From a virus: 26,204 nt of DNA. Each line of letters begins with the position of its first letter. The stretch's first letter is position 1. Below are positions 418 to 25,397 of the stretch, piece after piece. Where the stretch lies: positions 1-26,204 of the IMG/VR virus record IMGVR_UViG_3300032083_002581. One strand, 5' to 3'. Made by a program: the position numbers and the translations under genes. The notes under the pieces were generated by a model. That model saw only the letters and a program-made list of their open reading frames with translations, searched no databases and was not told the DNA's origin.

Positions 418-3400
418 TTAAACAAATATATTTCCTTCTTGTTGTGTATCATGTAAAAACTTACAAGGATCAGTTGTTGATGTTTCTCCTCTACTATTTA
501 CTTTTCCATTAGATAATGTTTGCCACCAACTAGGATTAGGAGAATTATCATAAACTTCATAATGTAAATGTACACCTTCAGCATCTCCACTATCACCCAT
601 AATACCTATACGTTGTTGCATTTCAACTACATCACCTATTTGTACAGTAATAATATCTAAATGGCAATATCTTGTTTTAAATTCTTCACCATTTATAATA
701 TGTTCAATCGTTACTTCATTACCACATCCAGAAAGAGATTCTTTTGTTGAAATAACTGTTCCGGCAGCCGCAGATCCAACAAGATCTCCTGCTATTCCTT
801 GTACACTTGCTCTAATATCTACTCCTGTATGTCTTCTATTAGGATCACCATCAGGTCTTTCTCTACCCCATGGAGAGTTTATTACTATTGGGTGGTCAAC
901 GGGGTTTGCCCATATTGAAGAATCTATAATGTTTTCAGGTCCTGGTAATCCTTCTATTGCCTTATCTATATTATCTAATTTTTCACCTTTTCTTTTAGGG
1001 ATAAAATTACCATTATAAGGATTAGTTCCATCATTATTTATTCCTTCCCCTTCACGGTCCATATATACATTATAATCTGTTTCACTATTATCGTGAACCA
1101 TTTGACCAGTAAATTCTACAGTCCAATCTCCCGCCGAGTTTATTGTTTGTGATTCAGGAAAAACAATAAAAGAAATTTTAGAGTTTTCATATGCTTTAGG
1201 TAATCTTTGTGGATTAATTTTAAAAACTTGACGGGGTAAAATTCCTCCTATACCATCCATTTTTATTGTAAAATTAAGAGGAACTACCATATTTCTTTTA
1301 ATAGATGTAGTATTTCTATAATGACCAACCTTTCCTAAAGGATTTTCATTACCATCCTTATCTAATAATGGGTGTCTTCGTAATATACTAATTCTTAATT
1401 CTTCTAATTCTTGAACATATAATTTAGCTTCATTAGCAGTTAATACATTTCTATAAGTCCCATCTGCATCAAAATAAGGTGAAATATCTGCGTTTGCTAA
1501 TCTTTTTATATATTCAGATACAGCATAGCAAAGATTTATGTATCTGTTTACATCTTGTTGCATATTAAATTTTGCATCTTGGTCTACTTGATTTTTATAC
1601 TCCAAATCTACTTCAGATGATGTAAATCTATTTTTTACATTTTTATTAAAGGCTTTAAAAGTCATAACTTCTAAAGTATTTTCTTCTTTAGGTGCTTGAG
1701 CAGCTATAGATACAGCTGAGGCAAAATCTTTTGTTATGGAAGAATCAAAAATAAAATCTCGAGTTATTGAATTTAATGATTGTGGATCAAATTCAAATAA
1801 ATCTTCAGGATTATCAATTTTATTATTAAAAGTTTTTTCTATTACTTTTACTATATGGGGTCTTTCATGTTCAGTTGTTATATCAAAATTATAATATCCA
1901 GCACATGCATCATTTACTCCGTCCCATATTTGTTTAACAAAATCATATAACCCAAAATCTTGATTAAGTCTAGGTGTTGTTGTATCTTCTATAGATTCAT
2001 TTTTAGTTGAAACAAATCTCATGTTTACATACTCCTTTATTACATAATCTAAATTAAAATAAATATAGCCTATATTATTTTTTGGATTATCAGGAAAAGA
2101 AAAAATATTATCATAAGAAGTAAGAGGTAAATGTGAAAATTGATTAGCAAATTGTACCATATGTTCATTATCTTGCCCATCAAATATATCAGGATCAAAT
2201 GCATTTAAATTATCAAAAAACTTCATGTGAGGAAGTAAACATACTTCGTAATCATAACTATGTCCTAATAAGGGATGACGTTTACCCGTGTTTTTACCAT
2301 CTCTTTCATTAGTTTGGCTACTTAAATTATCTACTGCCATTGGATTTGTTACTTCATCATATACATCCTGAGCAGACCTATTTGTTTGGTTAGAAATAAG
2401 ATTTATAGGATCTGCTGTTTCTAGTTCATCTGGAGCAGAATAAGGTAAATAAAAATGTTTTTCTATAAGTTCTTCTATAGGAACAGACCCATCTGGTGAT
2501 GTAACATTATCAAATATATCACCAAATCTATTTACTGTTTTTCTTTTTTTTCCTAATGCGTATGTTAAGGCTCCATCATTCATATAAGATAACTCCATTA
2601 CAGGCTTACCTTCTTTATATTGATCTGTACATAGTTGGTTTATTATTTGACATAATAAATCCCATCTTATGTATATATTATTATCATATCCTCTTCGATT
2701 ATAAATATTTTCTCCTGAAGTTTGTTTAAAATTAGTAGTATCAACATCATTATATTTGATTACTTGTTTTAGTATAGTGCCTCCTAAAAATGTTTTATAT
2801 CCTCTACCTATAACCTCATCATTTAATTCTTCGCCTTCGGGTAATTTGTTTGCTTTTATAATATCTAGATATAAATTTTCTATTTTACTATAAGCCTCTA
2901 AATATAATTTATTAGATTGATAATTTTGTAAATTTTCATATAGAATGTAATAAGGGTTTTCTTTTGACCCTACATTATATATAGAAGTTGATCGAGCAGA
3001 TGTGCCTGGAAAATTTTCTGTTTGAATACGAATCATACCTTCTGAGCCAAATTCCTCTGTATATGAAACAAGTGTTGAATTAAATTCAAAATCTGATACA
3101 GCTTGATCATACGCTGTTTGGCTGATTTGACCATTTGCAAATAGGTCATCATAAAATTTTAAATATTTTTCTCTTCTTTTTTCTAGATCTTTTTTTGATG
3201 CATCTCTATCAACAGCTGTATTTCCTATTGTTCTTGTATCTGGTTCATTTTCTGTAAGGTATGCTGTTTTTTTAATAGATCTTAAATATAATAAAAGTTG
3301 ATCCATTACTTCAATTTTAGTTAAAGCACGGTTATCAGTTGTTCTAATATCATATTGTAATATTTCTTTTCCTATTTGTAATCTTTCTATTAGATCTCCT

Positions 3401-4191
3401 TGTGCCATTATTTCTGTTTGACAATCATAACCACCATCCTCTCGGGCTTTAAAAGAAAAGTTTTTACAATAACCTACAAACCCATCATAATTCCCACCTG
3501 AGGCTTCTTTATATTGTTTTATTTTAGTATTTAATTTATCAAAATCAGAATCAGGATCAAAAAATTCATCTAATACAGTTGCTTCAGCTGTTTGTTTATT
3601 ACCATCATTATCTATATAAGGTGACCATTGCCATTCTAATAATATAGGAAATCCAATTCTCATATATAGAGTTTCTAATACACTTAATTGTCTCCTACTA
3701 TGGCAAACAAAATTTACTGTGGCTTCTCTAAGTGCTCCTTCAGCAGATTTAGTAGCTATAGTAGCGTCTATAATACCAGGCATAGGAACTATACCAAAAT
3801 CATCATCGGGATTAGATCTAATATTTTTATCACCGTAAGAAAAACCTCTTTCTCTATCATCTTCTTCGTTTAAAGTAGTAAATCCTTCTCTTTGCCCCGC
3901 AAATCCTCCTTCTCTATTGTAATGTTGAGTTCCTCCTTGTAAAATATATTGTCTTGCTAAACCACTACCTGTTTTTTTTATTTTTTCATCTTCTTCTAAA
4001 AAATCATCCCTAGCACTTTCTCGTAAATCAACTCCAGAAGCCATTGTAATAACACAACGTTTTTCAACAGTATAAGCATAAAATTCTTCGTTACGTAAAG
4101 AATCTGAATTTTCCATTAGATTTTTTCTAACTTCTAATTGCTTTTTTACGTATGGTTTAAATGGTTCATATATACCTAATGTAGTACCCAT
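418..4191 (-). CDS. Large baseplate/tail hub protein with C-terminal M23 metallopeptidase domain
   Basis: This 1257-residue protein is the largest in the window. Its last ~140 residues form an apparently intact M23 (LytM/lysostaphin-type) zinc peptidase: HTGVD gives ligands H1121 and D1125, a mid-domain YCHL gives H1177, and HLHYEV gives H1208 and ligand H1210. M23 enzymes cut peptide cross-bridges or stems in peptidoglycan. On a virion this would open the wall during DNA entry, the job done in T4 by the lysozyme domain of gp5. The first ~1100 residues have no domain I can name; they are rich in N, D and Y as in neighbouring structural proteins. The gene follows the LysM/gp53-like gene by 1 nt, which supports a baseplate location. 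The peptidase call is firm; the hub assignment is inferred from context. Confidence 0.82.
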   Translation of the reverse strand: MGTTLGIYEPFKPYVKKQLEVRKNLMENSDSLRNEEFYAYTVEKRCVITMASGVDLRESARDDFLEEDEKIKKTGSGLARQYILQGGTQHYNREGGFAGQREGFTTLNEEDDRERGFSYGDKNIRSNPDDDFGIVPMPGIIDATIATKSAEGALREATVNFVCHSRRQLSVLETLYMRIGFPILLEWQWSPYIDNDGNKQTAEATVLDEFFDPDSDFDKLNTKIKQYKEASGGNYDGFVGYCKNFSFKAREDGGYDCQTEIMAQGDLIERLQIGKEILQYDIRTTDNRALTKIEVMDQLLLYLRSIKKTAYLTENEPDTRTIGNTAVDRDASKKDLEKRREKYLKFYDDLFANGQISQTAYDQAVSDFEFNSTLVSYTEEFGSEGMIRIQTENFPGTSARSTSIYNVGSKENPYYILYENLQNYQSNKLYLEAYSKIENLYLDIIKANKLPEGEELNDEVIGRGYKTFLGGTILKQVIKYNDVDTTNFKQTSGENIYNRRGYDNNIYIRWDLLCQIINQLCTDQYKEGKPVMELSYMNDGALTYALGKKRKTVNRFGDIFDNVTSPDGSVPIEELIEKHFYLPYSAPDELETADPINLISNQTNRSAQDVYDEVTNPMAVDNLSSQTNERDGKNTGKRHPLLGHSYDYEVCLLPHMKFFDNLNAFDPDIFDGQDNEHMVQFANQFSHLPLTSYDNIFSFPDNPKNNIGYIYFNLDYVIKEYVNMRFVSTKNESIEDTTTPRLNQDFGLYDFVKQIWDGVNDACAGYYNFDITTEHERPHIVKVIEKTFNNKIDNPEDLFEFDPQSLNSITRDFIFDSSITKDFASAVSIAAQAPKEENTLEVMTFKAFNKNVKNRFTSSEVDLEYKNQVDQDAKFNMQQDVNRYINLCYAVSEYIKRLANADISPYFDADGTYRNVLTANEAKLYVQELEELRISILRRHPLLDKDGNENPLGKVGHYRNTTSIKRNMVVPLNFTIKMDGIGGILPRQVFKINPQRLPKAYENSKISFIVFPESQTINSAGDWTVEFTGQMVHDNSETDYNVYMDREGEGINNDGTNPYNGNFIPKRKGEKLDNIDKAIEGLPGPENIIDSSIWANPVDHPIVINSPWGRERPDGDPNRRHTGVDIRASVQGIAGDLVGSAAAGTVISTKESLSGCGNEVTIEHIINGEEFKTRYCHLDIITVQIGDVVEMQQRIGIMGDSGDAEGVHLHYEVYDNSPNPSWWQTLSNGKVNSRGETSTTDPCKFLHDTQQEGNIFV

Positions 4192-6371: not shown

Positions 6372-8339
6372 CTAGCTAAAAGCTGTTTGGTCCCTTTTAC
6401 CATCAGAATAAATACTTCTTTGAGCAAATTTATCTGCGGTTATTGTTCTATTTGTTCTACTTACTGATATTAATTCATCTAATTTATCCTCTACACCCTT
6501 ACTATTTGTAGAACCAGGTAATGATCCGGGTACAGCACTTGCGGGAGTTTCAGGGGTTGTCATAGATGCACCCCCTCCTACAGCTGATGATATTATAGTT
6601 GCTGCGGCTCCTGCGGCTACTAAACCAAAAATTATTCCAGGAATACCTCCTGTAGCAGCTGCTGCTAATATAGAGCTTATTGCTAATCTTGTCATATTAG
6701 CTACTAATAAACCTAAACCTATACCTGCTATGATTTTTAAATTATTTCTAAATGTTTCACTATTTTGAACTAAATTAGAAAATCCTTCTAATAGGGGTAA
6801 AAGAGGTGTCATTAAATCAACAAATATTGTTTTTAATTGCGTTACTAGATCATTGAATTGTTGTTGTAAATCTCTTCTTTCAAACATTGTTGCTAATTCT
6901 TCCTCTCCAGCATCTCTTGCTTGTTGAGCTAATGATGCAAATCCTTCTTGTTTGAATAACATATCACCTAATGTATCTGCACTCATTCCTAAAGATTTAG
7001 CTAATGCATCTTGTTGTAAAACATTCATTTTAGCAAATTCAAGTGCTGATCCTGCATTTGCTGCTATTTCTTTAGTTAAGCCTTCATAATTCCCTGTTAA
7101 TGCAAATAATCTGGCTCTTTCTAAATTTAGATTTTTACCTATAAATAATTCAGCTTCAAATTCAGCAGTTATAGATGATTGAAAATCTAATAAACTTTTA
7201 CTAATACCCGCTACTTCTGCTAAACTAGTACCAAAACTTTTAGTAACAGATATTGCACGAGCTATATTTTGTATATTAAAACCTAAATTTGCTCTTATTT
7301 GTCCTGTTATTTTACCAGCTTCATCTAGTACTTTATTTACATCTTGCCTAATTCCTAATTCTTTTTCAACTTCTAAAACAGCTGCTCTAGTTTCATCAGT
7401 TAACATTTCTGCGTTTTGACCTGAAATTTGAGCTTGTAAAGCAAAATTTGCTTGTGCCTCCGCTGATAAATTTGTAAATTTAGCTAGTTTAGCTATTTCA
7501 CCTACTACATCAGCTCTTAAAGAAGTTGCAGCTATACCTAATTGATCATTTATGTTGATTAAAGCTTCTTGAGTATCTAAACTATTAACTCCTATAGCTC
7601 CTGCGGCCTCTGCTGCTTTTATTCCTAAATTTGCTGCTTCTTGAGCAGATATACCTAGTTTTCTTTGAAGTTCAGCTACTCTTTTATCTAAAGATAATAC
7701 AGCACCCCCTATAAGTGCTGCTTGTGCTAAAAATGAATTTGCAAATTCAGATGCTGCATTTTTTAGTGAACCTAAAAATGCTATGGTTCTATTTTGATTA
7801 TCTTTTATAGCATTTTCTTGGTCTTTTAATATTTGATCTATAACTACTGCAGTAGCAGCTCCTACACCTGGAAGATCTTTTATAAAAGCAGCTATATTAT
7901 CTAAGAGACCCATTCTCTTATCAATATCTTCTCTTAGTTCCATTTCTGCTTTTAATTCTGCTTGTAAAGTTTGTGCAAATCTGATTTTTTCTTCTGCGAT
8001 TCTTTGTTCATCTTCGCCTGCACTTTTTGCAGCTTCAGCTAGTTGCATTTGAGCTACTTTTGCTTGAGCTAGTTTTTTGGCTAATTCTTCCTTTGATCTA
8101 ACCGTTGTTTGATCTAGGGCAACATCTGTTTCCTTAAGAAGTAGTTGGTCTTTTATTTGTTTAGTTATATCATTATTTAAAGAAGCAAATTCTTTTTGTG
8201 CTTCTGTTCTTTGTCTAGTATTACCTAAGATTTGGAATAGGACTTCATTTTGGTCTCTTAAAATTCTTAAAGCTTCTCTATCTACAGGTCCACCAGTACC
8301 ACCAGCGTCTTGATCTCTATATGGATAATTTTTTAACAT
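6372..8339 (-). CDS. Tail tape measure protein
   Basis: A 655-residue protein in the canonical tape-measure position, after tail tube and tail assembly chaperones. Residues about 15-145 are highly charged, A/E/K/Q-rich and predicted coiled coil. The middle is long and helical with many alanines. Residues about 536-589 are a hydrophobic Gly/Ala-rich stretch (IIAGIGLGLL, GIIFGLVAAGAAA) typical of tape measures that insert in the host inner membrane during genome entry. At roughly 1.5 Angstrom per residue a helix of this length would span close to 100 nm, similar to the T4 tail (gp29, 590 residues). A promoter-like box lies at 8355-8366 and a terminator for the preceding gene at 8376-8396, so it probably has its own transcript. 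Confidence 0.85.
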   Translation of the reverse strand: MLKNYPYRDQDAGGTGGPVDREALRILRDQNEVLFQILGNTRQRTEAQKEFASLNNDITKQIKDQLLLKETDVALDQTTVRSKEELAKKLAQAKVAQMQLAEAAKSAGEDEQRIAEEKIRFAQTLQAELKAEMELREDIDKRMGLLDNIAAFIKDLPGVGAATAVVIDQILKDQENAIKDNQNRTIAFLGSLKNAASEFANSFLAQAALIGGAVLSLDKRVAELQRKLGISAQEAANLGIKAAEAAGAIGVNSLDTQEALININDQLGIAATSLRADVVGEIAKLAKFTNLSAEAQANFALQAQISGQNAEMLTDETRAAVLEVEKELGIRQDVNKVLDEAGKITGQIRANLGFNIQNIARAISVTKSFGTSLAEVAGISKSLLDFQSSITAEFEAELFIGKNLNLERARLFALTGNYEGLTKEIAANAGSALEFAKMNVLQQDALAKSLGMSADTLGDMLFKQEGFASLAQQARDAGEEELATMFERRDLQQQFNDLVTQLKTIFVDLMTPLLPLLEGFSNLVQNSETFRNNLKIIAGIGLGLLVANMTRLAISSILAAAATGGIPGIIFGLVAAGAAATIISSAVGGGASMTTPETPASAVPGSLPGSTNSKGVEDKLDELISVSRTNRTITADKFAQRSIYSDGKRDQTAFS

Positions 8340-8375: not shown

Positions 8376-8396
8376 AAAGGTATCTATGATACCTTT
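8376..8396 (-). terminator. Rho-independent terminator after the tail chaperone genes
   Basis: A perfect 9-bp stem (AAAGGTATC at 8376-8384 with GATACCTTT at 8388-8396) and a 3-nt loop. On the minus strand it is followed by TTTCTTTTTTT, a U-rich tail. The stem begins at the stop codon (8396-8398) of the frameshift extension, so it ends the sheath/tube/chaperone block before the tape measure. Confidence 0.8.
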
Positions 8397-8671
8397 TACT
8401 TTTTAAAATTATAAGTTGAAGAGGGACTTATGTTAGGTCCCATAGCTTTTCCTAAAGGCTGTGAATTACCTTTTTGAGCTTTTTTCATTTCTTCATTTCG
8501 TTTTTTATTCCATTCACTTACTTTATGAATGTGGAATTTTCTTAACCAAATAGGCATGTTATAAACTTCTGAGTATATAAATCCACCACCACCATGGTAT
8601 ACTAGATCATGTATTTGGTCAAATATATTCTTCCTATATTGTGGCGTCAGGCCAAAAAAAGTTAACACCAA
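8396..8671 (-). CDS. Tail assembly chaperone frameshift extension (GT-type product)
   Basis: This frame overlaps the end of the gp26-like gene by 38 nt in a different frame and has no ATG. It is open only from a TAG about 30 nt upstream of the overlap; the first possible start, TTG at 8669-8671, is unconvincing. Translation therefore most likely enters by recoding at the T7 run (8654-8660), adding about 85 residues (GLTPQYRKNIFDQIHD...) to the chaperone. The extension contains YNMPIWLRKFHIHKV and a K/E/N-rich helix, features I associate with the T part of tail chaperone fusions that bind the tape measure. The order tube, G, GT, tape measure matches lambda gpG/gpGT and Mu-like systems. The frame offset is +1 (equivalent to -2), not the commoner -1. 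A terminator follows the stop at once. Confidence 0.7.
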   Translation of the reverse strand: MVLTFFGLTPQYRKNIFDQIHDLVYHGGGGFIYSEVYNMPIWLRKFHIHKVSEWNKKRNEEMKKAQKGNSQPLGKAMGPNISPSSTYNFKK

Positions 8672-9380
8672 CAGGAATATCTATTTTTGTAATATTCCCT
8701 CTAGCATCTTCATAATCGTATGATAGATCAACACTAGGTTGGATTTCTTTAATATAATTTCTTAATTCACGTGCATCTTTAGCTAAAAATTCAGTATCTA
8801 CAAAATTTCTGATTGTTTTACTTTCATAATCGCCATCTACAGATAAAATAATATGTTTTAGTCTAGTAGATAGTTCATTAGAAGCATTTTTGTTGATTTT
8901 TTTTAATCCTTTTAATTCTCTTTCTATAGCAATTTCATCACCATGTGTTAAAAGTTTAAAAGTGATTTCTTTTTCAGATACAGGTAAAGTAAATTTAAAT
9001 TCATTTTTACCATCTACTACTAAGGATTCATCTAAAGGTTTATCTTTAACTTCTGATAAATCAATATTAACTTCTTCTCCTCTATAAGTAAACGAATAAT
9101 CAGAACCATAACCTAATATCCTAGCAGCAATTAAAATTGCATTTTTATCACCTGATAATAATTCATTGTAATTAATAGGTGAAATAATTAATGCTTGTAA
9201 TAATTTATCTATTACTGTACCATTTGCTATTAAGTTTTGGTTAGTAAGGATATCTTCTTCTTTGGCAGTCATATATTTCATTTCTATGATTCCTTTTCTT
9301 AATGAAGATCCTTCTGGATAAAGTAAACCTTTTGAGGGTAATGTGACTTCTTCAGCCGGAAATTGGTGTTTTTGTTCCAT
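8634..9380 (-). CDS. gp26-like baseplate hub subunit / tail assembly chaperone
   Basis: A 248-residue acidic protein. The N-terminus VTLPSKGLLYPEGSSL followed by IEMKYMTAKEEDILTN and a helical segment with GDKNAILIAARILGYG is the pattern I know from T4-type gp26 (T4_baseplate family) proteins in marine myoviruses. In T4, gp26 is a hub-assembly protein. In other tailed phages the gene between tube and tape measure encodes the chaperone that keeps the tape measure soluble, and the overlapping second frame here supports that role. The 3' end carries AAC TTT TTT TGG, the recoding site. The ATG at 9380 is chosen because it lies about 24 nt after a promoter-like box and just beyond the tube terminator. 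No SD sequence is visible. Confidence 0.75.
   Translation of the reverse strand: MEQKHQFPAEEVTLPSKGLLYPEGSSLRKGIIEMKYMTAKEEDILTNQNLIANGTVIDKLLQALIISPINYNELLSGDKNAILIAARILGYGSDYSFTYRGEEVNIDLSEVKDKPLDESLVVDGKNEFKFTLPVSEKEITFKLLTHGDEIAIERELKGLKKINKNASNELSTRLKHIILSVDGDYESKTIRNFVDTEFLAKDARELRNYIKEIQPSVDLSYDYEDARGNITKIDIPVGVNFFWPDATI
8654..8660 (-). other. Putative programmed frameshift site (T7 run)
   Basis: The minus strand reads AAC TTT TTT TGG in the gp26-like frame, 18 nt before its stop codon (8634-8636). Slipping +1 of Phe-tRNA from TTT to TTT, or -2, moves ribosomes into the second frame (TTT GGC CTG ACG). Cognate pairing is kept because all codons involved are TTT. The products would be 327 (+1) or 328 (-2) residues. 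The site is read from sequence; its activity is inferred. Confidence 0.6.
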
Positions 9381-9473: not shown

Positions 9474-9959
9474 TTAGTAGTTTAAGATGGCATAATCCAT
9501 TACTATAGTCATTGAAATGTTTGCTGGTGAATCAGATGTCCAATCCATAGATCCAAAGTTTGCATTTTGACAATATGCACCTTTTAAAATCCATTCTTCA
9601 ACAACATCACCTACTGGTCCTAAAGTTCTAATATAAAGATCTTTTTTATAGAAATCAGAATAACCATCTCTACCTGTAACTGATTCATGTCCTAAACGAA
9701 CCCACTCCATTACTGCTTGTGCACCTGAAGGTGTTACTGGATCATAAAGTTCAGCTGTAACATTATCCCAGTTAGCTTTTCCTTTAATTTTTCTTTTCAC
9801 GTTAATATGATCAAGAACTACTTCTCCAAATGTAATACTTGGTCTATCAATTTTTTTAATCAGGTATGCTGGGATACCATCAATTTCCATTAGAAACCTA
9901 TTTTGTAATTTAGGTTCGAATGCTGTGAAAAACATGTCATTTGTTTCTAATATTGCCAT
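9474..9959 (-). CDS. gp19: Tail tube protein (gp19-like)
   Basis: A 161-residue protein of the T4 gp19 tail-tube family, close to the usual length (T4 gp19, 163 residues). Recognisable parts are the N-terminal FEPKLQNRFLMEIDGIPAYLIKK, the PSITFGEV strand, ANWDNVTAELYDPVTPSGAQ, and the C-terminal IVMDYAILNY. Hexameric rings of this protein stack inside the sheath as the DNA conduit. It follows the sheath gene, as in T4. A 20-bp promoter-like element at 9976-9995 lies upstream and a strong terminator downstream, so it can be expressed as a monocistronic unit, which fits a protein needed in over a hundred copies. The start codon is ATG with no SD. Confidence 0.95.
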   Translation of the reverse strand: MAILETNDMFFTAFEPKLQNRFLMEIDGIPAYLIKKIDRPSITFGEVVLDHINVKRKIKGKANWDNVTAELYDPVTPSGAQAVMEWVRLGHESVTGRDGYSDFYKKDLYIRTLGPVGDVVEEWILKGAYCQNANFGSMDWTSDSPANISMTIVMDYAILNY

Positions 9960-10011: not shown

Positions 10012-13000
10012 TTAATAGCCTCCGCCACCACCAGCAGTTCCACCACCTCCTGTAGCTCCACCGCCACTACCATCAAATGTAGCTCCTGTAGGTAGTACAT
10101 TAAAGTCTAGTACTATAAACTCAGCTGTTTTAGTTGGTTGTAAGTAAATAGCGCCTAATAATTGGTTTCTATCAATTACATCTGGTGTGTTATTGGTTTC
10201 GTCCATTTGGACTCTAAATGCGTATAATCCTTGTCTTTGTTGTACTGATTCTAGATATGGATTTACTATATTTAGGAATCTTGTTCTTGTTTGTAATGTA
10301 TTTTGTTCAAATACTAGGTATCTTGAAGAACTTGCAATGTATTTCTTAAGTGAAATTAATAATCTACGAACATTAATTCTATCTAATGCTGTTGATCTTT
10401 CTTGTAATGTTTTCTGACCCCAAATACAAACTCCAGTTCCTGGGAATGTAGCTATTGGATTAATTTTATTATCATATAATGTATCTCTTTCAGCTTGGTT
10501 TAATCTAATTTTAGCTTCTAGTACATTTCCTAGTACACCTCTATTTAAACCTGCTGGTGCAAACCATTCTGCAGCAATTCTATCTGAAGCAGCTATTGCT
10601 CCTGGTACAATTACTGATGGTGGTACTAATACTGGTCTATTTCTAGAGTCTGTAACTTTAACCCATGGATAATAAACAGCAGCATAATTAGTATCTAATC
10701 CATCTACTGTATTAACAGCTGTATTTACAGATGCATCTAATCTGGTTAAATCCATTACATAAAATGCATCTCCTCTTCCTTCTGCCATATCAATAGCGGC
10801 ATTTGTTACAGAATTATGAATTTGTTTAATAACACCTGGTAACACTAACATGTTAATGTCGTATTCGTCTTGATTTGAAAGAATATCTAATGCTTTTTTA
10901 TATGCCTTATATCCATTTTTATCAGTCCCACTTAAATCAAATCCATATAGATTAGTTCCTGCTGTATATGTTGAATCCATATCTGATGCTACTGCTGTTT
11001 CACCACCTGTGAATTTTACAGTATAAGGAGCTATACCATCATCACCACCTTGGAAAGGTACTGTGAATTTTAACTGATTAGCTGTTGGTCCTGTAGTTCC
11101 TGTTGTATCAAGAGAAGCACTTAATGAACCTACCCATAATGATGAGCTTGGGTGACCTGAATAATTTTCAACATTAAAATCACCCGACACATTAGCCTGA
11201 TTATTATCTGGTAATGGTTGTAAGAAAGCTTCATTATCTGGTTCTTTATCAATAAATTTAAATCCTAAAAATGCTTTAGAGCTATAATCGCTTCCTACTA
11301 CTTGATTTCCTTCGTATGATGCTGAAGGGAATGTAAAATTAGTAGCAAATGAAGCTGTGTTGATTGTATCTCTTACTGCTTTAAATCCTTTTGGAGACAT
11401 TTTAGGTGAAAGACCTTTAGAAGCTACTGCTGCTGCTACCTCAACTCTAATTAAATTTGAAATATTTGGATAATTTCCAAGTAGTTCTACTTTTGCTAGT
11501 GTATCATTATATTGTGGGTATCTATCTCCAATTACTTTTGCAATATAATTTGGTGAATCTGGATCTAAATTACAGTTATTAAATTGTTCTAAAATAACTG
11601 GGTTTTTATCTTTATCGTTTGTTCTTCTAACTATAACAGAGAATGTAGAGTATTGTTCAACTCCATCAATATTACTTGGTTCTCTTAAGTTAGCAATTGA
11701 AATTTTAAAATCATGACATAAATGTTTACCATGATCTAGTGTATGGAATTTAAATAATTCTTTTGTTGTTTTATTAGCATCTAAAAACTGTGTAGTAATA
11801 AACGGTGTAGAAGCATATCCATATCCTTCTGTTTGGCCTATTTCTCCACTAAATACTATATCAGCTGATTGAGTAACTACCATAACGTGATCACCACTAG
11901 CTACTGAATATCCTGTAATATCGGTTCCTTGAGTAGTAACTGATACAGATGCTGTAGTAGCTGTTAGTGCACTTTGGCCAATTCCATCGGGGCCAAATTT
12001 ATTAATTGCATCTGTTGCAGATCCTGCATCAGCATAAGTTATAGTTACAATTAAACCTGTACTGTCTACTGTAGCAGAAAATGGTTTATCACTAGATATA
12101 CCTGATGGTGAAGAACCTGTGATAGAATTTACTGCTGCCGCAAAACTGACTGCTAATCCTGCACCTGAAATATTTGTATTAATCATTTGATGTGCACACA
12201 AATCTGCTTTAACTAATGAACCTGTTATACCAGTTGTTGGATCAGCAAAACTAGAACCTGAAAATACTAGTGTATATTGTTCTCCATCAGAGTCTGATAA
12301 AACAATAGCTCTTGTTTGGTTTTCAGCTACACTATCAATACTTGCTGTAGCAATGAATTCACTTGCAAATGTAACTTGTGCTACTTCTGAAGTTGCACTT
12401 GCTATATTTGTTTGAATTGTTTTAAAATTAATATAAGTGTATCCAGGAGTTCCAGCGTAAGCAGTCACACCACTTTTGCTATTGTCAGCTGAGTTTCCTA
12501 ATTGTTTAAATAAATAATTTGAATTAGCAGGATTTAATGAGGCAGAAAATTGTGTACCTGCTGTTAGTGCAGCTCCTCCAGTTGAACCACTTAATATAAA
12601 ATTAAAGTTTTCAGTAAAGTCTTGTTCAGCTGTATCTGTAGATGCTGATAAAATAGAAAGACCTAAATCAGGAGTACCTGTATTTTTAGAAGGATAAACT
12701 ACACCTAGTAGTACATTTTCAGCTGCACTTACTGAGCTAGTAATAACTAATGCTATCATTTCATTAGTTCCATTTGCAAATGTATATCCGCTTCCTCCTA
12801 ATACTCTTGTTACAGTAACTGATCCAGCGTTTTTTAAATATTCTCTAACTGTTTGTGGAACATAAGTTTCTGTATCATTAGATCCGAATCTTCTTTGGTA
12901 TTCTGAAAAACTTCTTACTACCGTAGGTACAAATGCTGGTCCTTTTTCTGTAGGTCCAACAACTGCTGCTCCAATTGCTTGGACCCCAGCAGGTAAAAAT

Positions 13001-13053
13001 GAAAGGTCGTTTTCTCTTGTAAAAACACCTGGTGAAATAATTTGTTCTGCCAT
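10012..13053 (-). CDS. gp18: Tail sheath protein (gp18-like), enlarged
   Basis: A 1013-residue contractile sheath subunit. The N-terminus IISPGVFTRENDLSF and the segment GAAVVGPTEKGPAFVPTVV are typical of sheath proteins. The C-terminal ~300 residues hold the conserved core: RNRPVLVPPSVIVPGAIA, WFAPAGLNRGVLGN, FPGTGVCIWGQKT, and INVRRLLISLKKYIASSSRY. T4 gp18 is 659 residues; the surplus here is in the Thr/Ser/Ala-rich middle (about residues 100-470), which looks like inserted beta-sandwich domains exposed on the sheath surface. The last ~17 residues are almost all glycine (GGGATGGGGTAGGGGGY). The gene precedes the tube gene and has a 134-bp upstream region with two promoter-like boxes and a hairpin. 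The identification is firm; the boundaries of the insert are estimated. Confidence 0.95.
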   Translation of the reverse strand: MAEQIISPGVFTRENDLSFLPAGVQAIGAAVVGPTEKGPAFVPTVVRSFSEYQRRFGSNDTETYVPQTVREYLKNAGSVTVTRVLGGSGYTFANGTNEMIALVITSSVSAAENVLLGVVYPSKNTGTPDLGLSILSASTDTAEQDFTENFNFILSGSTGGAALTAGTQFSASLNPANSNYLFKQLGNSADNSKSGVTAYAGTPGYTYINFKTIQTNIASATSEVAQVTFASEFIATASIDSVAENQTRAIVLSDSDGEQYTLVFSGSSFADPTTGITGSLVKADLCAHQMINTNISGAGLAVSFAAAVNSITGSSPSGISSDKPFSATVDSTGLIVTITYADAGSATDAINKFGPDGIGQSALTATTASVSVTTQGTDITGYSVASGDHVMVVTQSADIVFSGEIGQTEGYGYASTPFITTQFLDANKTTKELFKFHTLDHGKHLCHDFKISIANLREPSNIDGVEQYSTFSVIVRRTNDKDKNPVILEQFNNCNLDPDSPNYIAKVIGDRYPQYNDTLAKVELLGNYPNISNLIRVEVAAAVASKGLSPKMSPKGFKAVRDTINTASFATNFTFPSASYEGNQVVGSDYSSKAFLGFKFIDKEPDNEAFLQPLPDNNQANVSGDFNVENYSGHPSSSLWVGSLSASLDTTGTTGPTANQLKFTVPFQGGDDGIAPYTVKFTGGETAVASDMDSTYTAGTNLYGFDLSGTDKNGYKAYKKALDILSNQDEYDINMLVLPGVIKQIHNSVTNAAIDMAEGRGDAFYVMDLTRLDASVNTAVNTVDGLDTNYAAVYYPWVKVTDSRNRPVLVPPSVIVPGAIAASDRIAAEWFAPAGLNRGVLGNVLEAKIRLNQAERDTLYDNKINPIATFPGTGVCIWGQKTLQERSTALDRINVRRLLISLKKYIASSSRYLVFEQNTLQTRTRFLNIVNPYLESVQQRQGLYAFRVQMDETNNTPDVIDRNQLLGAIYLQPTKTAEFIVLDFNVLPTGATFDGSGGGATGGGGTAGGGGGY

Positions 13054-13952: not shown

Positions 13953-15188
13953 TTATCTTGTTTTAGCTGTTACTGTATATGATCCTTTCATTACCTTACT
14001 ACCTGCTATATCTGAATTTGCAAATATATATAAATAATCTCCTTTATCAGCTTGTAATCCTGTACTTCCTGTTATGTAAATATCGTTTGGTCTACCATTA
14101 GTTGTTGTAGCTGAAGAGGCACTAGCTAAAAATGTTATAGTACTACCAGCGGCACCATTAAAAGGGGTACCTTTATATATATAATAATTTAATTCAGTTA
14201 CACTAGCATTAGGTCTTAAAGTTCCAACAAGTTCTATATCTGTTATATTATGGTTTATTCTGACTCCTTTATTAAAGTCAAGGTGGGTAAAAGTTCCCGT
14301 ATCTCCATCACCAGCATCTACATCTGATTTATCTACGCCATCATCCCAACCTCTATCGGCCCAACCAAAATTATCATCACCATTTGTTAACTTCCCTAAA
14401 CCCCAATCATTTGTATCAGTTGCAGAGTACCATGCATGTGTAACTATTTGAATAGGGGCACCTATAAAATTACTTGCACTTATATTACCTGAGGCTGTAA
14501 TTTCTCCAGTTACATCAATACCTGTAGTTTCAACTTCTAAAGCTGTAGCATTAGCTGGTTTTAATTGTATTTTATCGTCAGTTCCAAAATCAATGTAAGT
14601 GTCATCAGTAGCTCTACCTACTTTTAAACTTGTATTTGTAACAGAAGTTATACCTGTTTGAGCCGCCGATACATCTAGTTCTTCATTTGTATTATCTGCT
14701 GTTAAACCTACACCCGCTATAACATCAACATCTATATCTAGAGTAACTGAACCACCTAATGTAACTGATCCTCCTGTTTTTAGCCCATCTCCTGCTGTTA
14801 TAGTTACAGAATCTTCAGCTAACTTGGCAATTGGAATTTCATCATTATCAATTTCTGCAACGATTGCGGCCGCTAATGTATCTGAAACTGCGGCTGCATC
14901 TAATGTAGCTGCTGTTATTGTTCCTAAAGCAGTTACATCCCCACTAGTTAATATATTTCCACTTGCACTTATATTACCTGAAGCGGTTATTTCACTAACT
15001 ATAAGATTACCACTTGCGCTTACAACTGAGGCAGTGACATTAGTAAATGTTTCTAATTTCCTTACATCGTTTCCAGAGCCCGAACCATAGTAAAATAAAC
15101 CATCGTTTACATTAATAGCTACTTCACCATTTGTAAGACTAGATGGGGCTCCTGATGTCCCTGTTTTTAATTGTATTGTACTTGCCAT
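13953..15188 (-). CDS. Tail fibre/adhesin with ASGNIS repeats (fibre A)
   Basis: A 411-residue fibre-type protein. The N-terminus MASTIQLKTGTSGAPSSLTNGEVAINVNDGLFYYGSG is the attachment domain seen in many marine phage fibres. Repeats of the ITASGNISASGN type follow at about residues 67-80 and 230-240, separated by a beta-repetitive region (SVTITAGDGLKTGGSVTLGG). The C-terminal ~150 residues (from about 250, QIVTHAWYSATD) lack repeats and contain W- and D-rich loops (NDWGLGKLTNGDDNFGWADR), making this the probable receptor-binding tip. The protein is Thr/Ser/Ala/Gly-rich and cysteine-free, consistent with a trimeric beta-helix. An ATATTTATAAT box ends 2 nt before the ATG. Confidence 0.75.
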   Translation of the reverse strand: MASTIQLKTGTSGAPSSLTNGEVAINVNDGLFYYGSGSGNDVRKLETFTNVTASVVSASGNLIVSEITASGNISASGNILTSGDVTALGTITAATLDAAAVSDTLAAAIVAEIDNDEIPIAKLAEDSVTITAGDGLKTGGSVTLGGSVTLDIDVDVIAGVGLTADNTNEELDVSAAQTGITSVTNTSLKVGRATDDTYIDFGTDDKIQLKPANATALEVETTGIDVTGEITASGNISASNFIGAPIQIVTHAWYSATDTNDWGLGKLTNGDDNFGWADRGWDDGVDKSDVDAGDGDTGTFTHLDFNKGVRINHNITDIELVGTLRPNASVTELNYYIYKGTPFNGAAGSTITFLASASSATTTNGRPNDIYITGSTGLQADKGDYLYIFANSDIAGSKVMKGSYTVTAKTR

Positions 15189-15190
15189 AT

Positions 15191-15201
15191 ATTATAAATA
15201 T
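15191..15201 (-). promoter_or_regulatory. Promoter-like box abutting the fibre A start
   Basis: The minus strand reads ATATTTATAAT directly before AT-ATG. If it is a -10/-7 element, the message would be nearly leaderless. Alternatively the sequence here only serves as the A/T-rich initiation context. Confidence 0.35.
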
Positions 15202-15939
15202 CTAAAAAGTTCCTCCATTTATAGTTAAATCTAAATTATTTATTTGTGCTGCTCCTGAAATTATACCACTTGGTACAAAAGATAAATTATTATAACTGAC
15301 ATCTACTAAATCACCACCACTTCCATTAAATCTAGATGCAGATATAGTTCCACTTGCACTTATATTACCTACTACTTCTAATTTTTCTCCTGGTGAAGAT
15401 GTTCCTATACCCACACCTGTAGTGGTTAATGCTAACACATGAGAATTACTATTGTCAACATGCATTCGGATAAAATCATCATCTTCATTACCTACTATTC
15501 TAACTCTACCTGTGTTGCCATCTCCTATATCCGCAAATGTAATTTGTTTATTATTTTCTAATTGTAAATCACCGCCGTCTATGCTTAATATATCTGTACC
15601 ACCGGTTGCTCCTACCTGTAATTTATCTGTTTTTACATAATCAAATGAACCAGTAACTCCTATTATATCACCACTTGCACTTATATTACCTGATGCTGTA
15701 AAGTTAGTTGCAAAACTAGCTGTGTCTGCGCTCACAGCATGTGATGAAGATAACTCAAACGTAATCTCATGAGAAGCAGACACTGCAAATAAAGCATGTG
15801 ATGCTGTTATAGCGTGTGAAGCTGAGATTGGGATAAAGATATTACCCTCTCCGTCAGCTAGTCTATTAGTATTATCTGTTTGGACTACTCTTTGATAAGT
15901 ATCTTGTATATTTTGTCCTGTAAAGTCGCCAATTGCCAT
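15202..15939 (-). CDS. Tail fibre protein with ASGNIS and ASHA repeats (fibre B)
   Basis: A 245-residue fibre. The start (MAIGDFTGQNIQDTYQRVVQ) is an attachment-type domain. Residues about 37-70 hold short-period repeats around A/S-S-H-A/E (ISASHAITASHALFAVSASH). FTASGNISASGDI and VGNISASGTISASRFNG are copies of the ITASGNIS repeat shared with the two other fibre genes. GVGIGTSSPGEKLEVVGNIS is the hallmark motif of beta-helical phage fibres, often found ahead of S74 chaperone domains, but no S74 domain is present. The C-terminus is IINNL-type beta strands ending TINGGTF. It is likely to be a short or proximal fibre working with its neighbours. Confidence 0.72.
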   Translation of the reverse strand: MAIGDFTGQNIQDTYQRVVQTDNTNRLADGEGNIFIPISASHAITASHALFAVSASHEITFELSSSHAVSADTASFATNFTASGNISASGDIIGVTGSFDYVKTDKLQVGATGGTDILSIDGGDLQLENNKQITFADIGDGNTGRVRIVGNEDDDFIRMHVDNSNSHVLALTTTGVGIGTSSPGEKLEVVGNISASGTISASRFNGSGGDLVDVSYNNLSFVPSGIISGAAQINNLDLTINGGTF

Positions 15940-15948
15940 TTATAACCA

Positions 15949-16509
15949 TTATTTTTCTTTTTCAAGAATTTCTAATACACCATTAATAACTTTACCTGTG
16001 TTTTTCACGGTGTTTTCTTTGAGATACGTTGCTACTATATTATTTAGTGCGTTACGTTTGTATGAGATATTTTCTATGTTTATATCTTCTTTTACTAATA
16101 ATTTAAGTAAATTTATTACGTGATCTTTTTCAGTAAGTGTTGGTTTTTCTTTTTTAACTTTAACATTTACTTTAGTTTCTACTATAGGTTTTTTAGTTGA
16201 TTGTGACTTAACCTCAACAGTTACTTTTTTACTTGCATCTACTTCAAAATCTGATTCCCAAGGAGTAAAGTAAGTGTCTTCAGCTATAACTTCTAAACGA
16301 ATATTACCTGTAGTATTTTCGTCTATTAAACCTTTTAATTTTCTAATAGGGATTTCACACTTTCCATTAGAATTAATTTCACCTTTAAAAAGTAAAGAGT
16401 AGTCGGATGTTTCGACTACTAAACGTGCAGATGATTTACTTAAACTGGCTCCTTCTAGTTTAATATCACATTCAAAAAGCTCAGATTTATCAGTAAATAA
16501 TTTATACAT
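15949..16509 (-). CDS. Uncharacterised protein in the fibre block
   Basis: A 186-residue protein that I do not recognise. Residues 1-100 look like one all-beta domain (YKLFTDKSELFECDIKLEGA, then SARLVVETSDYSLLFKGEI and GKCEIPIRKLKGLI). Residues about 100-125 are a Lys/Val/Thr-rich linker (VEVKSQSTKKPIVETKVNVK). Residues 125-186 are helical with a basic surface. It sits between fibre B and a 101-residue protein and has a TATATTTATAAC box 11 nt upstream, so it may open a transcript with fibres B and A. A fibre-associated structural protein or chaperone fits the position, without sequence proof. Confidence 0.65.
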   Translation of the reverse strand: MYKLFTDKSELFECDIKLEGASLSKSSARLVVETSDYSLLFKGEINSNGKCEIPIRKLKGLIDENTTGNIRLEVIAEDTYFTPWESDFEVDASKKVTVEVKSQSTKKPIVETKVNVKVKKEKPTLTEKDHVINLLKLLVKEDINIENISYKRNALNNIVATYLKENTVKNTGKVINGVLEILEKEK

Positions 16510-16520
16510 AATTAGATTTT

Positions 16521-16532
16521 GTTATAAATATA
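16521..16532 (-). promoter_or_regulatory. Putative late promoter box TATATTTATAAC
   Basis: An 11-of-12 match to the box TATATTTATAAT on the minus strand, 11 nt before the ATG at 16509. Confidence 0.45.
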
Positions 16533-16541
16533 GGATGATTA

Positions 16542-16847
16542 TTAAAACTTAATATTTTCTGTCATTATTTCTATACCTAATACTTTTTTAGCTAATAATT
16601 TTATATCAGAAATTTTGATTTTATAATCTTGAATTTCTTTTTCTTCTCTAATAGTTTTACCTTGAACTTTACAAATTAATTTTATAAGACGTTTTTTCTT
16701 TTCATCTTTAAATTGAGTCCAAGGCATATCTTCTGCCATAACTCCTCCACCCCCTACAGCTTCAATTACTAGTAAAACTTCATCCCAAGTGTGTGGATTA
16801 TTATCCCAATTAAAATTAGCCTTGTTCCATGTTATAGGTGTTGCCAT
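16542..16847 (-). CDS. Small conserved-type phage protein, unknown function
   Basis: A 101-residue protein. It starts with paired W-x(3-7)-W elements (ITWNKANFNWDNNPHTWDEV), a pattern I have seen at the start of small proteins in marine phage structural operons. A glycine knot (AVGGGGVMAED) and a basic helical C-terminal half (KDEKKKRLIKLICKVQGKTI) follow. It begins 3 nt after the stop of fibre C and has no promoter box of its own. No enzymatic motif or membrane segment is visible. It could be a fibre adaptor or virion component, but there is no direct evidence. Confidence 0.6.
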   Translation of the reverse strand: MATPITWNKANFNWDNNPHTWDEVLLVIEAVGGGGVMAEDMPWTQFKDEKKKRLIKLICKVQGKTIREEKEIQDYKIKISDIKLLAKKVLGIEIMTENIKF

Positions 16848-16850
16848 TTA

Positions 16851-18047
16851 TTATATCCCTAACATTTGGAAATTAATTTTAAGAGTACCTCCTGCAAAAG
16901 CTTCTGTACCACATGATAGATTTAGGAAAAATGCCCCAGCTTGTATACTATTAGGGTTAACTAAAACCTTATTATCACTATTAGCAATTATTATCATATA
17001 CGTTTGACATCTAGCTGCTATAACTCTAAAATTAAGTATTTCTTCTTTTGGATTTGCACTAGGAACACCAGTAATAGTTATTATACCTCCATATGCAGAA
17101 CCTATATCTTTAGAACCATCACCAAAAGTAGCTGCGAATTCACTTGTTCTAACTTGGCTAAGATCTATTGTGGGTATTGATATTGAACCAAATGTTACAG
17201 AACTATTTGTTTTAACATTTTGGTCCATATCATATAACTCATTATCACCTTGGCCTGTGTTTACTGTTGCAAAAGTTACAGCTGATGTTGTTGTAACATT
17301 TTGATTCATGTCATATAACTCATTATCACCTTGGCCTGTGTTTAAAGTAGATGCTATTAATTTTCCACTTGCGCTTATATTACCTGAGGCTGTTATTGGT
17401 CCAAATAATGAAATATTTTTTGTTGGTTCTGCAGATCTTCCTATGCTTATAGCTTTATAATTTCCATCTTCGAATAACGATCCTGTAAAATCAGAATTTT
17501 GAGAGAAAACTGATCGAACAGCTGTAAGTCCATCTGCCTTAAAATTGGATGAAAATATAGTACCACTTGCACTTATATCTCCTGAGGCGGTTATTTCTCC
17601 ATCAAGTATTAAATTTCCACTTGAACTTATATTACCTGAGGCTGTTATATGTCCTGTGAAAGATGATTTTCCTGTTATTGTTAAGTCTCCTGTCGCACTT
17701 AAATTTCCACTTGAACTTATATTACCTGAGGCTGTTATATTTCCTTGAGCATCTAAACCTCCTCCAAATATTTGTAAATTATCTCCTGTTGTATCTGGTA
17801 GTAATCTAACATTATCAGACTCAAATCTAAACCCACCAGTATTATCTGCACTAAATGAACTAGCAATTATAGCCCCACTTGAACTTATATTACCTGAAGC
17901 AGTTATTTCACCTGTTAACTGAATGTCTCCTGTATTGTTTTCTGATAAATTTAAATTACTATCTACTAAATCAGCATAGTTATTTTCTGTGGGAACATCG
18001 CCTGTTTGAAAAAATGATTTTAGTGTAGTTCTTGTTTGTTTTGCCAT
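16851..18047 (-). CDS. Tail fibre/adhesin with the densest ASGNIS repeats (fibre C)
   Basis: A 398-residue fibre. The N-terminus (TLKSFFQTGDVPTENNYADLVDSNLN) is an attachment domain common in marine phage fibres. Residues about 45-230 carry six or more ITASGNIS(S/A)SG units at irregular spacing, interrupted by motifs such as DLTITGKSSFTGH. Next comes a 27-residue tandem duplication (NTGQGDNELYDM...), encoded by DNA with a 34-bp exact repeat at 17230-17263 and 17311-17344. The C-terminal ~110 residues (from about 290, VRTSEFAATFGDG) are non-repetitive and beta-rich (RVIAARCQTYMIIIAN), a likely receptor-binding or trimerisation head. It follows the gp15-like gene by 1 nt. Confidence 0.75.
   Translation of the reverse strand: MAKQTRTTLKSFFQTGDVPTENNYADLVDSNLNLSENNTGDIQLTGEITASGNISSSGAIIASSFSADNTGGFRFESDNVRLLPDTTGDNLQIFGGGLDAQGNITASGNISSSGNLSATGDLTITGKSSFTGHITASGNISSSGNLILDGEITASGDISASGTIFSSNFKADGLTAVRSVFSQNSDFTGSLFEDGNYKAISIGRSAEPTKNISLFGPITASGNISASGKLIASTLNTGQGDNELYDMNQNVTTTSAVTFATVNTGQGDNELYDMDQNVKTNSSVTFGSISIPTIDLSQVRTSEFAATFGDGSKDIGSAYGGIITITGVPSANPKEEILNFRVIAARCQTYMIIIANSDNKVLVNPNSIQAGAFFLNLSCGTEAFAGGTLKINFQMLGI
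17230..17344 (-). repeat. Tandem 81-bp duplication in fibre C
   Basis: Two copies of a unit starting 81 bp apart share 34 identical consecutive bases (17230-17263 and 17311-17344), with further similarity around them. They encode two NTGQGDNELYDM modules. The 81-bp period preserves frame (27 residues). Confidence 0.85.
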
Positions 18048-21735: not shown

Positions 21736-22398
21736 TTACATTCCGTTCAATAATTCAAATACCTCATCTATTGCTTCATGGCGGTGATTATCTTGAAGTA
21801 CTCTTTTATAAACATATTGAGAGTCATCTATTTTAGATACATCATGAATGGCTGAGTAGTTTTTATCTTTAAGGTCAATTTGTTGACTATCACCACAGTA
21901 GATCATTGTTGATCCTTTTCCTATTCTGCCTAAGGTCATTCTAAATTGTGAACGAGTTAAATTTTGAAATTCATCTACTATCACTAATGAATTTTCAAAT
22001 GTTCTACCTCTAAAATGTGCTAGTGATACTAATTCTATTTGTTCACTACTTTCCATTTTTTCTAATATATCTGGTTTATTATAAACCTTTCTCATATTAG
22101 ATCTAATAGGTACTAACCATGGTTCCATTTTTTCTTTTTCTGAACCAGGTAAAAAACCATTGTCTTCAGTTGATACTGTAGGTCTTGTAATGATGATTTT
22201 GTCTATCATTCTTTTAAAAAACATATCTAAAGCAACTTGACATGCTAATAATGTTTTACCACTACCTGCCTTACCAACTATAAAATTGTAAGGATGGTGT
22301 AAAATTGCTTGTTTAGCTGCTTTTTGTTCTTCTGAAAGGGATAATGAAAATCTTACAGAACCTTTTGGGGGTTTTTTTGCCGTGTTTTTTGTCGCCAT
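21736..22398 (-). CDS. phoH: PhoH-like P-loop ATPase
   Basis: A 220-residue PhoH-family NTPase. Walker A is GKAGSGKT at residues 42-49, with the ITRPTVSTEDNGFLPG segment at about 70-85. The RGRTF element lies near 130-134, Walker B is SLVIVDEFQN at about 137-146, and the GDSQQIDL sensor-like motif is at about 169-176. All motifs look intact. PhoH proteins are RNA/DNA-associated ATPases related to helicase cores; phage copies are very common in marine myoviruses, and their exact role is unsettled. The gene sits between the major capsid gene and the neck set, behind the capsid terminator and a TATATGTATAAT box. Its ATG is preceded by TTATATTT, with no SD. Confidence 0.93.
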   Translation of the reverse strand: MATKNTAKKPPKGSVRFSLSLSEEQKAAKQAILHHPYNFIVGKAGSGKTLLACQVALDMFFKRMIDKIIITRPTVSTEDNGFLPGSEKEKMEPWLVPIRSNMRKVYNKPDILEKMESSEQIELVSLAHFRGRTFENSLVIVDEFQNLTRSQFRMTLGRIGKGSTMIYCGDSQQIDLKDKNYSAIHDVSKIDDSQYVYKRVLQDNHRHEAIDEVFELLNGM

Positions 22399-24233: not shown

Positions 24234-25397
24234 TTATTCGTTAATTTTAATATTTGCTAATTTTTGGAAACGATTTACCATATTAGATGATTCTGAAATT
24301 ACTTCTTTTTTAGGAGCGGTACTAATACCAGCTGCTTTAGAAGCCATTCCAAAGTTTTCTTTTAAAGTTTTCGTTTTTGTTTTTACAGATGCTTTCTTTG
24401 ATTTAGCAACATTGAAAGTATCCTTAATAGTTTCATATATTAACTTAGCTTCTTTAACGCTATCAGCTTTATCTAATGTCTCAACAACACGTAGTTTTTG
24501 AGCTTCATCTAAAGTGTTTGCTTTAAAAATTCTGTTAACATAGAGTAGTTTAGAGTTAAGAAGATTAACTTCGTTAAGCTCGACTTTGATAGCAGTATAT
24601 GCAGCTTGGGCTTCATGTAATTTAGCACGTAAAGGTTTGCAACCTCCTCCAACGGATTCTTTTACTTCCTTTTTATCGTCTTTATCATGCACGCCTTCAT
24701 CTACATCATCTTCATCATGCATACCTTCAGTCACACCTTCTTCATAGCAGTGTGATTCAGGCATTGGTTTACCATCTTCATCGTAGCAATGTCCTTCTTC
24801 TAAACTGTTGATTTCATTTAAGAGAGCATCTAGATCAAATTCCTCATTTTCGTTTAGACCTTGATTAACGTCAGTAGCATCTGCTTTGACTTTTTGTACT
24901 TGGTCTGCGCGGTAATTAGGATAACCTACAGCTTCTTCAATTTCATCTTCTTCGTCTAAGACTTCTTCGTCTTCGTCTAATTCTAGTTCATTTAATAGTT
25001 CTTCCAAATCTATTTCTTCGTCCATGTCGTCTTCGTCATGCATGCCTTCGTCCATATCGTCTTCATCATGCATACCTTCGTCCATGTCGTCTTCGTCATG
25101 CATGCCTTCATCCATATCGTCTTCGTCATACATTCCTCCGTGCATCATTCCATGACCTTCATCCATATCATCCTCATCATGCATACCTTCATCCATATCA
25201 TCTTCGTCATGCATACCTTCGTCCATGTCGTCTTCATCGTACATGTCCTCGTCTAATTCCTCAGATAATTTAGCAGATAGCATTGATTGGAGTTTTGGAG
25301 TGAAAGCTTCTTCCAATGCAGCTTTAGCATTTGCAAGTGCTACTTCACGAACCGCTTTAGCGTCAGCGATAGCCTCTTTTAAAATGTCCTTTGCCAT
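24234..25397 (-). CDS. Prohead core scaffold candidate with acidic His/Met repeats
   Basis: A 387-residue, extremely acidic protein in the gp22 (scaffold) position just before the capsid gene. The N-terminus is a helix (AKDILKEAIADAKAVREVAL, then LEEAFTPKLQSMLSAKLSEE). Residues about 51-127 contain seven MHDEDDMDEG-type decapeptides split 3+4 by HGMMHGG. Another acidic region follows (EEIDLEELLNELELDEDEEV), with a degenerate repeat copy near residue 227. The C-terminal ~140 residues are helical and basic (SKKASVKTKTKTLKENFG). LxE sites suitable for a T4-type prohead protease are frequent. Core proteins are expelled or degraded after shell assembly. The scaffold call rests on position, acidity and helical ends; the repeat region is unusual. 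Confidence 0.72.
   Translation of the reverse strand: MAKDILKEAIADAKAVREVALANAKAALEEAFTPKLQSMLSAKLSEELDEDMYDEDDMDEGMHDEDDMDEGMHDEDDMDEGHGMMHGGMYDEDDMDEGMHDEDDMDEGMHDEDDMDEGMHDEDDMDEEIDLEELLNELELDEDEEVLDEEDEIEEAVGYPNYRADQVQKVKADATDVNQGLNENEEFDLDALLNEINSLEEGHCYDEDGKPMPESHCYEEGVTEGMHDEDDVDEGVHDKDDKKEVKESVGGGCKPLRAKLHEAQAAYTAIKVELNEVNLLNSKLLYVNRIFKANTLDEAQKLRVVETLDKADSVKEAKLIYETIKDTFNVAKSKKASVKTKTKTLKENFGMASKAAGISTAPKKEVISESSNMVNRFQKLANIKINE
25016..25247 (-). repeat. 30-bp tandem repeats coding MHDEDDMDEG
   Basis: Seven near-identical 30-bp units are arranged as four and three copies around a 21-bp spacer coding HGMMHGG. Third positions vary between copies (for example TCG/TCA, GTC/ATC), so the peptide is better conserved than the DNA. 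This argues for selection on the protein rather than very recent duplication alone. Confidence 0.85.

Follow-up and report, generated by a model that had tools for sequence, protein, structure and literature searches.

Introduction

A recoding review describes the frameshift between the tail genes G and T as conserved in long-tailed phages, with T4 as the exception (PMC5009743). In lambda (gpG/gpGT; Xu, Hendrix, Duda; PMC5009743), the gene lies between those for the tube and the tape measure and gives a short product and a rare long one. Ribosomes slip shortly before the first frame ends, and the overlapping second frame has no start of its own. The direction of the shift varies among phages and can be -1, -2 or +1 (PMC5009743), and the haloarchaeal myovirus HSTV-2 is cited as a very likely case of +1 frameshifting at the tail chaperone locus (PMC5009743). 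For T4, a review of tail assembly lists gp26 and gp51 as hub assembly chaperones; gp51 is essential, required for assembly and absent from the particle, and its function is unknown (PMC3004832).

Here, we analyzed a 26,204-nucleotide stretch (the window) of the contig IMGVR_UViG_3300032083_002581 from a marine T4-type phage. A gp26-like gene in it very likely yields a short protein, G, and a long one, GT, through a +1 programmed frameshift. The locus resembles that of lambda in its gene position, its slip site and its startless second frame, with an overlap of 47 nt, and by inference in its short and rare long products, and meets the G/GT hallmarks of gene position, a startless overlapping frame and a conserved slippery sequence. 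Unlike lambda G, the G protein of the window falls in the T4 gp26/PF12322 family, and the shift would be +1 at UUU/CUU-UGG; HSTV-2 very likely shares the direction but differs in host domain. The conservation of the offset, the element and the extension, as well as the homology of G and, through cyanophage sequences, of T to T4 proteins, is shown below. That ribosomes shift frame here, in which direction and how often, and that the products act as chaperones, is inferred, with no protein or reporter data. In the open-access full texts, we found neither a frameshift in the gp26 family nor gp26/gp51 described as G/GT; subscription papers were not covered, and priority is not established.

Results

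Organization of the G and T frames

The genes of the window are ordered as sheath, tube, G/T and a long ORF in the place of the tape measure (Table 1), and the order of tube, G, T and tape measure is that of the tail assembly chaperone genes of lambda-like phages. The long ORF has no family match in Pfam and PHROG profile searches; in Flavobacterium phage immuto, SP-15 and LIS04, a gene annotated as tape measure occupies the corresponding place. The location between tube and tape measure, which an earlier reading of the sequence alone had proposed, thus held, with the tape measure probable by position only.

Table 1 Features of the G/T locus and its neighbors in the window.
Feature	Position	Strand	Length or evidence
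Tail sheath protein (context)	10012..13053	-	PF04984, E=8.7e-18
Tail tube protein (gp19-like), upstream neighbor	9474..9959	-	phrog_4542 tail tube, E=4.3e-28; PF06841, E=3.7e-5
G, gp26-like protein, product of standard decoding	8634..9380	-	248 aa
T, extension frame, +1 register, no ATG start	8396..8680	-	open from 8680 down to the stop at 8396; conserved domain
TAG preceding the T frame	8681..8683	-	
TTG in the T frame	8671	-	
Overlap of the two open frames	8634..8680	-	47 nt, stop-to-stop ORFs
Shift element TTT TTT TGG CCT GAC	8646..8660	-	conserved in relatives
T-run	8654..8660	-	seven T's
P-site codon TTT	8655..8657	-	
A-site codon TGG	8652..8654	-	
Codon after the +1 slip, GGC	8651..8653	-	
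G stop codon	8634..8636	-	
Probable tape measure protein, downstream neighbor	6372..8339	-	655-aa ORF; position only

The G protein matches the 'baseplate hub' profile phrog_150 (E=9.6e-10). A Pfam search of the window ORFs gave no direct PF12322 match for G, but tblastn leads from it to a gp26-like protein of Bacillus phage SP-15 (E=2e-13), and this homologue matches PF12322 with E=1.5e-28. On the minus strand, the gene ends with GGT GTT AAC TTT TTT TGG CCT GAC GCC ACA ATA TAG, so that the protein terminates in NFFWPDATI. The second frame is offset by +1 (equal to -2) relative to G. It encodes the motif GLTPxYR...QIHD.V.HG.GG...YNMPIWLR, and its first ATG falls within the conserved core (YNMP), none being found ahead of the domain. 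Comparison of T with DUF6760 (PF20546) gave a weak score of 19.7 bits against a curated cut-off of 27, and membership is not met. DUF6760 was also used to look towards contractile injection systems; a search of 392 genomes returned one match, which has an internal stop and looks like chance, and this route was abandoned.

The sequence-only reading had placed a +1 or -2 frameshift site in this gene, and the arrangement is confirmed, the frameshifting itself remaining an inference. AAC TTT TTT TGG ahead of the G stop, a second frame without ATG that opens after an upstream TAG, and an extension of 85 residues (counted from GLTPQYR) all held. Its overlap of 38 nt held in part, being the value counted from the TTG of Table 1 rather than the overlap of the open frames. 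Its label of chaperone is still an inference.

Conservation of the offset, the element and the extension

A scan of IMG/VR reached at least 600 relatives, of which the best 80 were analyzed. In all 80 of these nearest viral contigs, the extension is open in the identical register, and the two frames join at TTT-YTT-TGG-CCT-GAC or a near variant. Across 82 close relatives, the first codon is always TTT, the P codon is TTT or CTT and is always followed by T, and TGG occupies the A site in 79, with CCT next in 80 and then GAC in 78; two relatives (L058 and L059) read TTT TTT TTC. All 12 P-site codons that encode Leu are CTT, though CTT makes up only 19.6% of the Leu codons in these genes, and a tree of 65 sequences requires two to three changes between TTT and CTT. 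The boundaries of the shift are narrow: L029 and L055 have an upstream in-frame stop at a distance of 5 nt from the P codon, and in other relatives the G stop lies 9-12 nt downstream of it. The shift must therefore take place at or just after the T-run.

Beyond the G stop, the extension frame contains no stop in 79 sequences, against 320 and 834 for the two alternative frames, and its median dN/dS of 0.32 (773 pairs, non-independent) indicates purifying selection. The conserved offset and open extension are far from chance expectation, and chance is excluded. Part of the constancy of the element has another source. The element encodes WPD in one frame and GLT in the other; this double coding alone would keep much of it constant, and we therefore do not take its full length as signal.

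Two explanations would dispense with recoding by the ribosome. The first, that faulty sequencing or assembly or the decay of the gene has split the frames, is suggested by the proneness of homopolymers to miscalls. It is all but excluded, because about 190 loci keep the offset, as do isolated phages, purifying selection acts on the extension, and heteropolymer variants exist. The second, transcriptional slippage on the T-run, would generate mRNAs with a changed number of U's. In its favor, the run comprises seven T's in most members and nine in L058 and L059. Seven T's are short for efficient polymerase slippage. Twelve sequences carry TTTCTTTGG, in which TTTCTTT leaves no run above three and the offset is unchanged; both a miscalled homopolymer and polymerase slippage are rejected on account of these variants, and we regard the latter as very improbable. 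Conservation of the overlap, the T-run and the offset in relatives had been set as a test by the sequence-only reading, and it is passed in the same loci; a single uninterrupted frame at the site, which would have refuted that reading, is seen in no homologue, and the miscall that it had also allowed for is ruled out by the TTTCTTTGG variants.

Direction of the shift and proposed mechanism

The position, the register and the P-site codons fit re-pairing from (U/C)UU to UUU, as at prfB, and for this reason a +1 slip is favored. Features in common with the prfB site (CUU UGA C) are the U that comes after the P-site UUU or CUU, the UUU on which the tRNA re-pairs in the +1 frame, and the U-G-x-C pattern of the next bases. 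CUU, CCC and UUU are reported as the slipperiest codons for +1 shifts (PMC10885494). Unlike at prfB, the A-site codon is the sense codon UGG instead of a stop, no SD-like stimulator was seen in the ten upstream stretches inspected, and the shift would govern the ratio of two products and not the level of a release factor. No conserved downstream RNA structure was detected either, the 80-nt windows being not above shuffles or control windows (mean z -0.14). A pause caused by a rare codon at TGG was considered and rejected, as TGG is neither rare nor common in the window, at 6.2 per 1000 codons, though Trp is nearly absent elsewhere from G (2 of 19,972 codons); judged by window codon usage, the rarity of TGG does not explain the A-site pause.

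The main competitor is a -2 slip, as in phage Mu or arteriviruses, which would make the same fusion with one extra Phe (NFFFGLTPQ). Its register is identical to that of +1; on the run of seven T's, a P-site slip by -2 re-pairs UUU with UUU, and a P-site tRNA on CUU could re-pair on UUC. A tandem -2 slip is impossible, since the codon preceding the run is freely variable (AAC, TCG, AAG, CAG, ACA and others) and tRNA-Trp is unable to re-pair on UUU. Furthermore, at the TTC TTT CGT sites of the SP-15 type, -2 would set Phe-tRNA on UCU, but +1 gives a perfect UUC. A -2 slip by the P-site tRNA alone, on the seven-T or CTT sites, is not excluded, though we consider it unlikely, as we do the -2 explanation as a whole. 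The direction, which the sequence-only reading had given as +1 (or -2), is thus refined: +1 is better supported and is the likely direction, but it remains inferred.

With the +1 slip as the preferred reading, the majority of ribosomes would halt at TAG and release G. A minority would slip at the Phe-Phe site: with UGG waiting in the A site, the peptidyl-tRNA would leave the P-site codon, which is UUU or in some relatives CUU, and re-pair on the overlapping UUU. Reading on in the +1 frame, these ribosomes would make GT of 327 aa, with the predicted junction ...PVGVNFF|GLTPQYR... Should the analogy with lambda G/GT apply, many copies of G and few of GT may cover the tape measure protein, with tube subunits recruited by the T domain, after which G and GT would leave. 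The tail-chaperone role of G and T, the binding to tape measure and tube and the excess of the short product are all inferred, without experimental data.

Inferred shifts of +1 and -1 across the wider family

The +1 frame is open past the G stop and encodes a T-like domain in six further phages, namely Flavobacterium phage immuto, Microcystis phage Mel-JY01, Bacillus phage SP-15, Listeria phage LIS04, Streptococcus phage GXN1 and Rhodothermus phage RM378. At their T regions, GenBank holds truncated hypothetical proteins or nothing, and a frameshift is annotated in none. Two scans provided 111 further readable loci, 108 with the +1 offset and three (L249-L251) with -1; the 108 take in L267, which is cut by the contig end, and L311, both assigned to +1 by a T-profile match. 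A scan of a genome collection revealed one contig of an Erysipelotrichaceae MAG with an open +1 frame, and a tblastn search of plasmids with SP-15 G gave no match. At several SP-15-type loci (L231, L232, L236, L239-L241, L245 and L246), the site reads, for example, TTA TTT AAT CCC AGT or CTA TTC AAT CCC AGT. The slip codon is ambiguous there, and CCC-A is a possible alternative +1 site.

Kyanoviridae phages such as P-SSM2 and HTVC008M carry the same family gene ('gp26') with T in another frame at the same place. They differ from the window in having T in the -1 register and in being annotated as two genes, the T ORF appearing as a distinct small 'gp51' (57 aa in P-SSM2, 45 aa in HTVC008M). Among 83 cyanophage-type loci, which comprise P-SSM2 (counted twice) and 80 viral contigs, the heptamer T_TTT_TTC is found in 81. 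One exception is HTVC008M with T_TTT_TTT. The other, L190, is unexplained: its gp26 frame ends elsewhere, no heptamer is present, and 413 codons are open in the +1 frame. The -1 arrangement also occurs in phiM12 (T_TTT_TTT) and in phiW-14, Atu_ph07 and PA5oct (T_TTT_TTC), and the -1 frame of LR756511 is T-like. The -1 sites (U_UUU_UUC) fall on the same Phe-Phe position as the +1 sites.

These annotations raise the alternative that T is a separate protein with its own start, at TTG or GTG or by translational coupling, as GenBank presents the cyanophage 'gp51'. In its support, the window has TTG and GTG codons ahead of its shift site, and in most cyanophage-type loci an ATG lies 5 nt after the beginning of the G stop codon. 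Against it, 13 of the 82 close relatives of the window locus have no ATG, GTG or TTG ahead of the conserved domain, and 49 have no ATG there; the cyanophage ATG is missing in L214 and HTVC008M; the slip elements would need no conservation; and in T4 gp51, T is fused in frame to the gp26-like domain. We thus hold a separate T to be unlikely in general, though independent initiation remains conceivable in the cyanophage-type group and is not fully excluded. Most of the cyanophage-type loci L135-L214 have both a T-frame ATG a few bases past the G stop and the -1 heptamer, and two routes to T, as a fusion and as a free protein, may coexist there.

Relationship to T4 gp26 and gp51

In T4, PF12322 (T4_baseplate) and phrog_150 each pick out both gp26 (208 aa) and gp51 (249 aa); phrog_634 is a further family for this pair. 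The C-terminal end of gp26, EFFELL, is the equivalent of the shift-site Phe-Phe, and gp51 runs about 45 residues further. The T sequences of cyanophages match the C-terminus of gp51 (hhalign E=1.9e-11; hmmsearch on gp51 proteins from 7e-9 to 5.5e-3, with the best shuffled decoy at 0.063), and the cyanophage T profile matches the window-type T profile with E=1.6e-6. Neither a direct profile comparison of window-type T with the gp51 C-terminus (E=0.08) nor a whole-length hhalign of GT against gp51 was significant. The homology between the T of the window and gp51 is therefore indirect, since the link is seen only via cyanophage sequences.

The number of PF12322 genes follows the same division. 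One such gene is present in SP-15, LIS04, GXN1, LR756508, Atu_ph07, PA5oct, LR756511, RM378, P-SSM2, HTVC008M, phiW-14 and phiM12, and two are present in the Straboviridae phages T4, RB43, PF-CE2 and Aeromonas phage 31. At the Pfam level, a PF12322 match is lacking in Mel-JY01 and immuto, but tblastn gives one homologue in each. In T4, G thus has homologues in both proteins and T in the gp51 C-terminus, but the two are separately initiated paralogous genes on opposite strands and not a single frameshifting gene. From this homology, we infer that gp26 (as G) and gp51 (as GT) are likely a G/GT pair split by duplication. Two separate, normally initiated genes would have refuted the sequence-only reading; the pair in the T4 relatives consists of the paralogues gp26 and gp51 instead of a split G and T. 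Its proposed link of T4-type gp26 to the G/GT chaperones is strengthened, gp51 being a gp26 paralogue with the same C-terminal domain.

A bolder reading joins these inferences, and we consider it more likely than not. PF12322 would be the tail chaperone family of T4-type phages, descended from an ancestral single frameshifting gene that shifts by +1 or -1 according to lineage at the same Phe-Phe codon pair, with T4 having swapped the frameshift for a duplication.

Predicted structures of G and T

The AlphaFold2 model of G is confident (pLDDT 90.7), and in BFVD it matches the SP-15 protein (TM 0.82) and many baseplate hub or assembly proteins of T4-type phages. A Foldseek search of the PDB with this model gave no significant match. 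With VIA-align, the top match is 2ob9, the tail assembly chaperone of HK97, a weak one (Z 4.6, rmsd 3.2) over 78 residues within 126-216 of the model; as a Z under 8 may arise by chance, the predicted likeness to the HK97 chaperone fold is suggestive and possible, not proof. T modeled alone is poor (pLDDT 62), and searching by sequence brought up no solved structure for G or gp51.

Discussion

If gp26 and gp51 are split equivalents of G and GT, the T4 exception to the conserved G/GT frameshift vanishes. Two T4 proteins would then gain a testable role, including the essential gp51, whose mechanism would be to link the tape measure gp29 to the tube. Within the family, one pair of proteins would then arise through a +1 slip, a -1 slip or gene duplication, which makes a natural series. 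In the annotated phage records examined, the gene is labeled 'baseplate hub' or hypothetical, with the second ORF truncated or missing, and many genomes are probably affected, given the at least 600 related viral contigs reached by the scans.

Other ORFs on the minus strand of the window were noted in passing. A 1257-aa ORF (418-4191) carries at its C-terminus a peptidase domain of the M23 type (PF01551, E=4.6e-18) and is possibly a hub or tail lysin. Several ORFs at 13953-18047 contain repeated ASGNISASG-type motifs and by eye resemble tail fiber or tip proteins. A P-loop ATPase ORF (21736-22398, GKAGSGKT), which looks PhoH-like by eye, is located amid the structural genes, and a 387-aa ORF (24234-25397) carries several tandem copies of MHDEDDMDEG in a strongly acidic repeat region.
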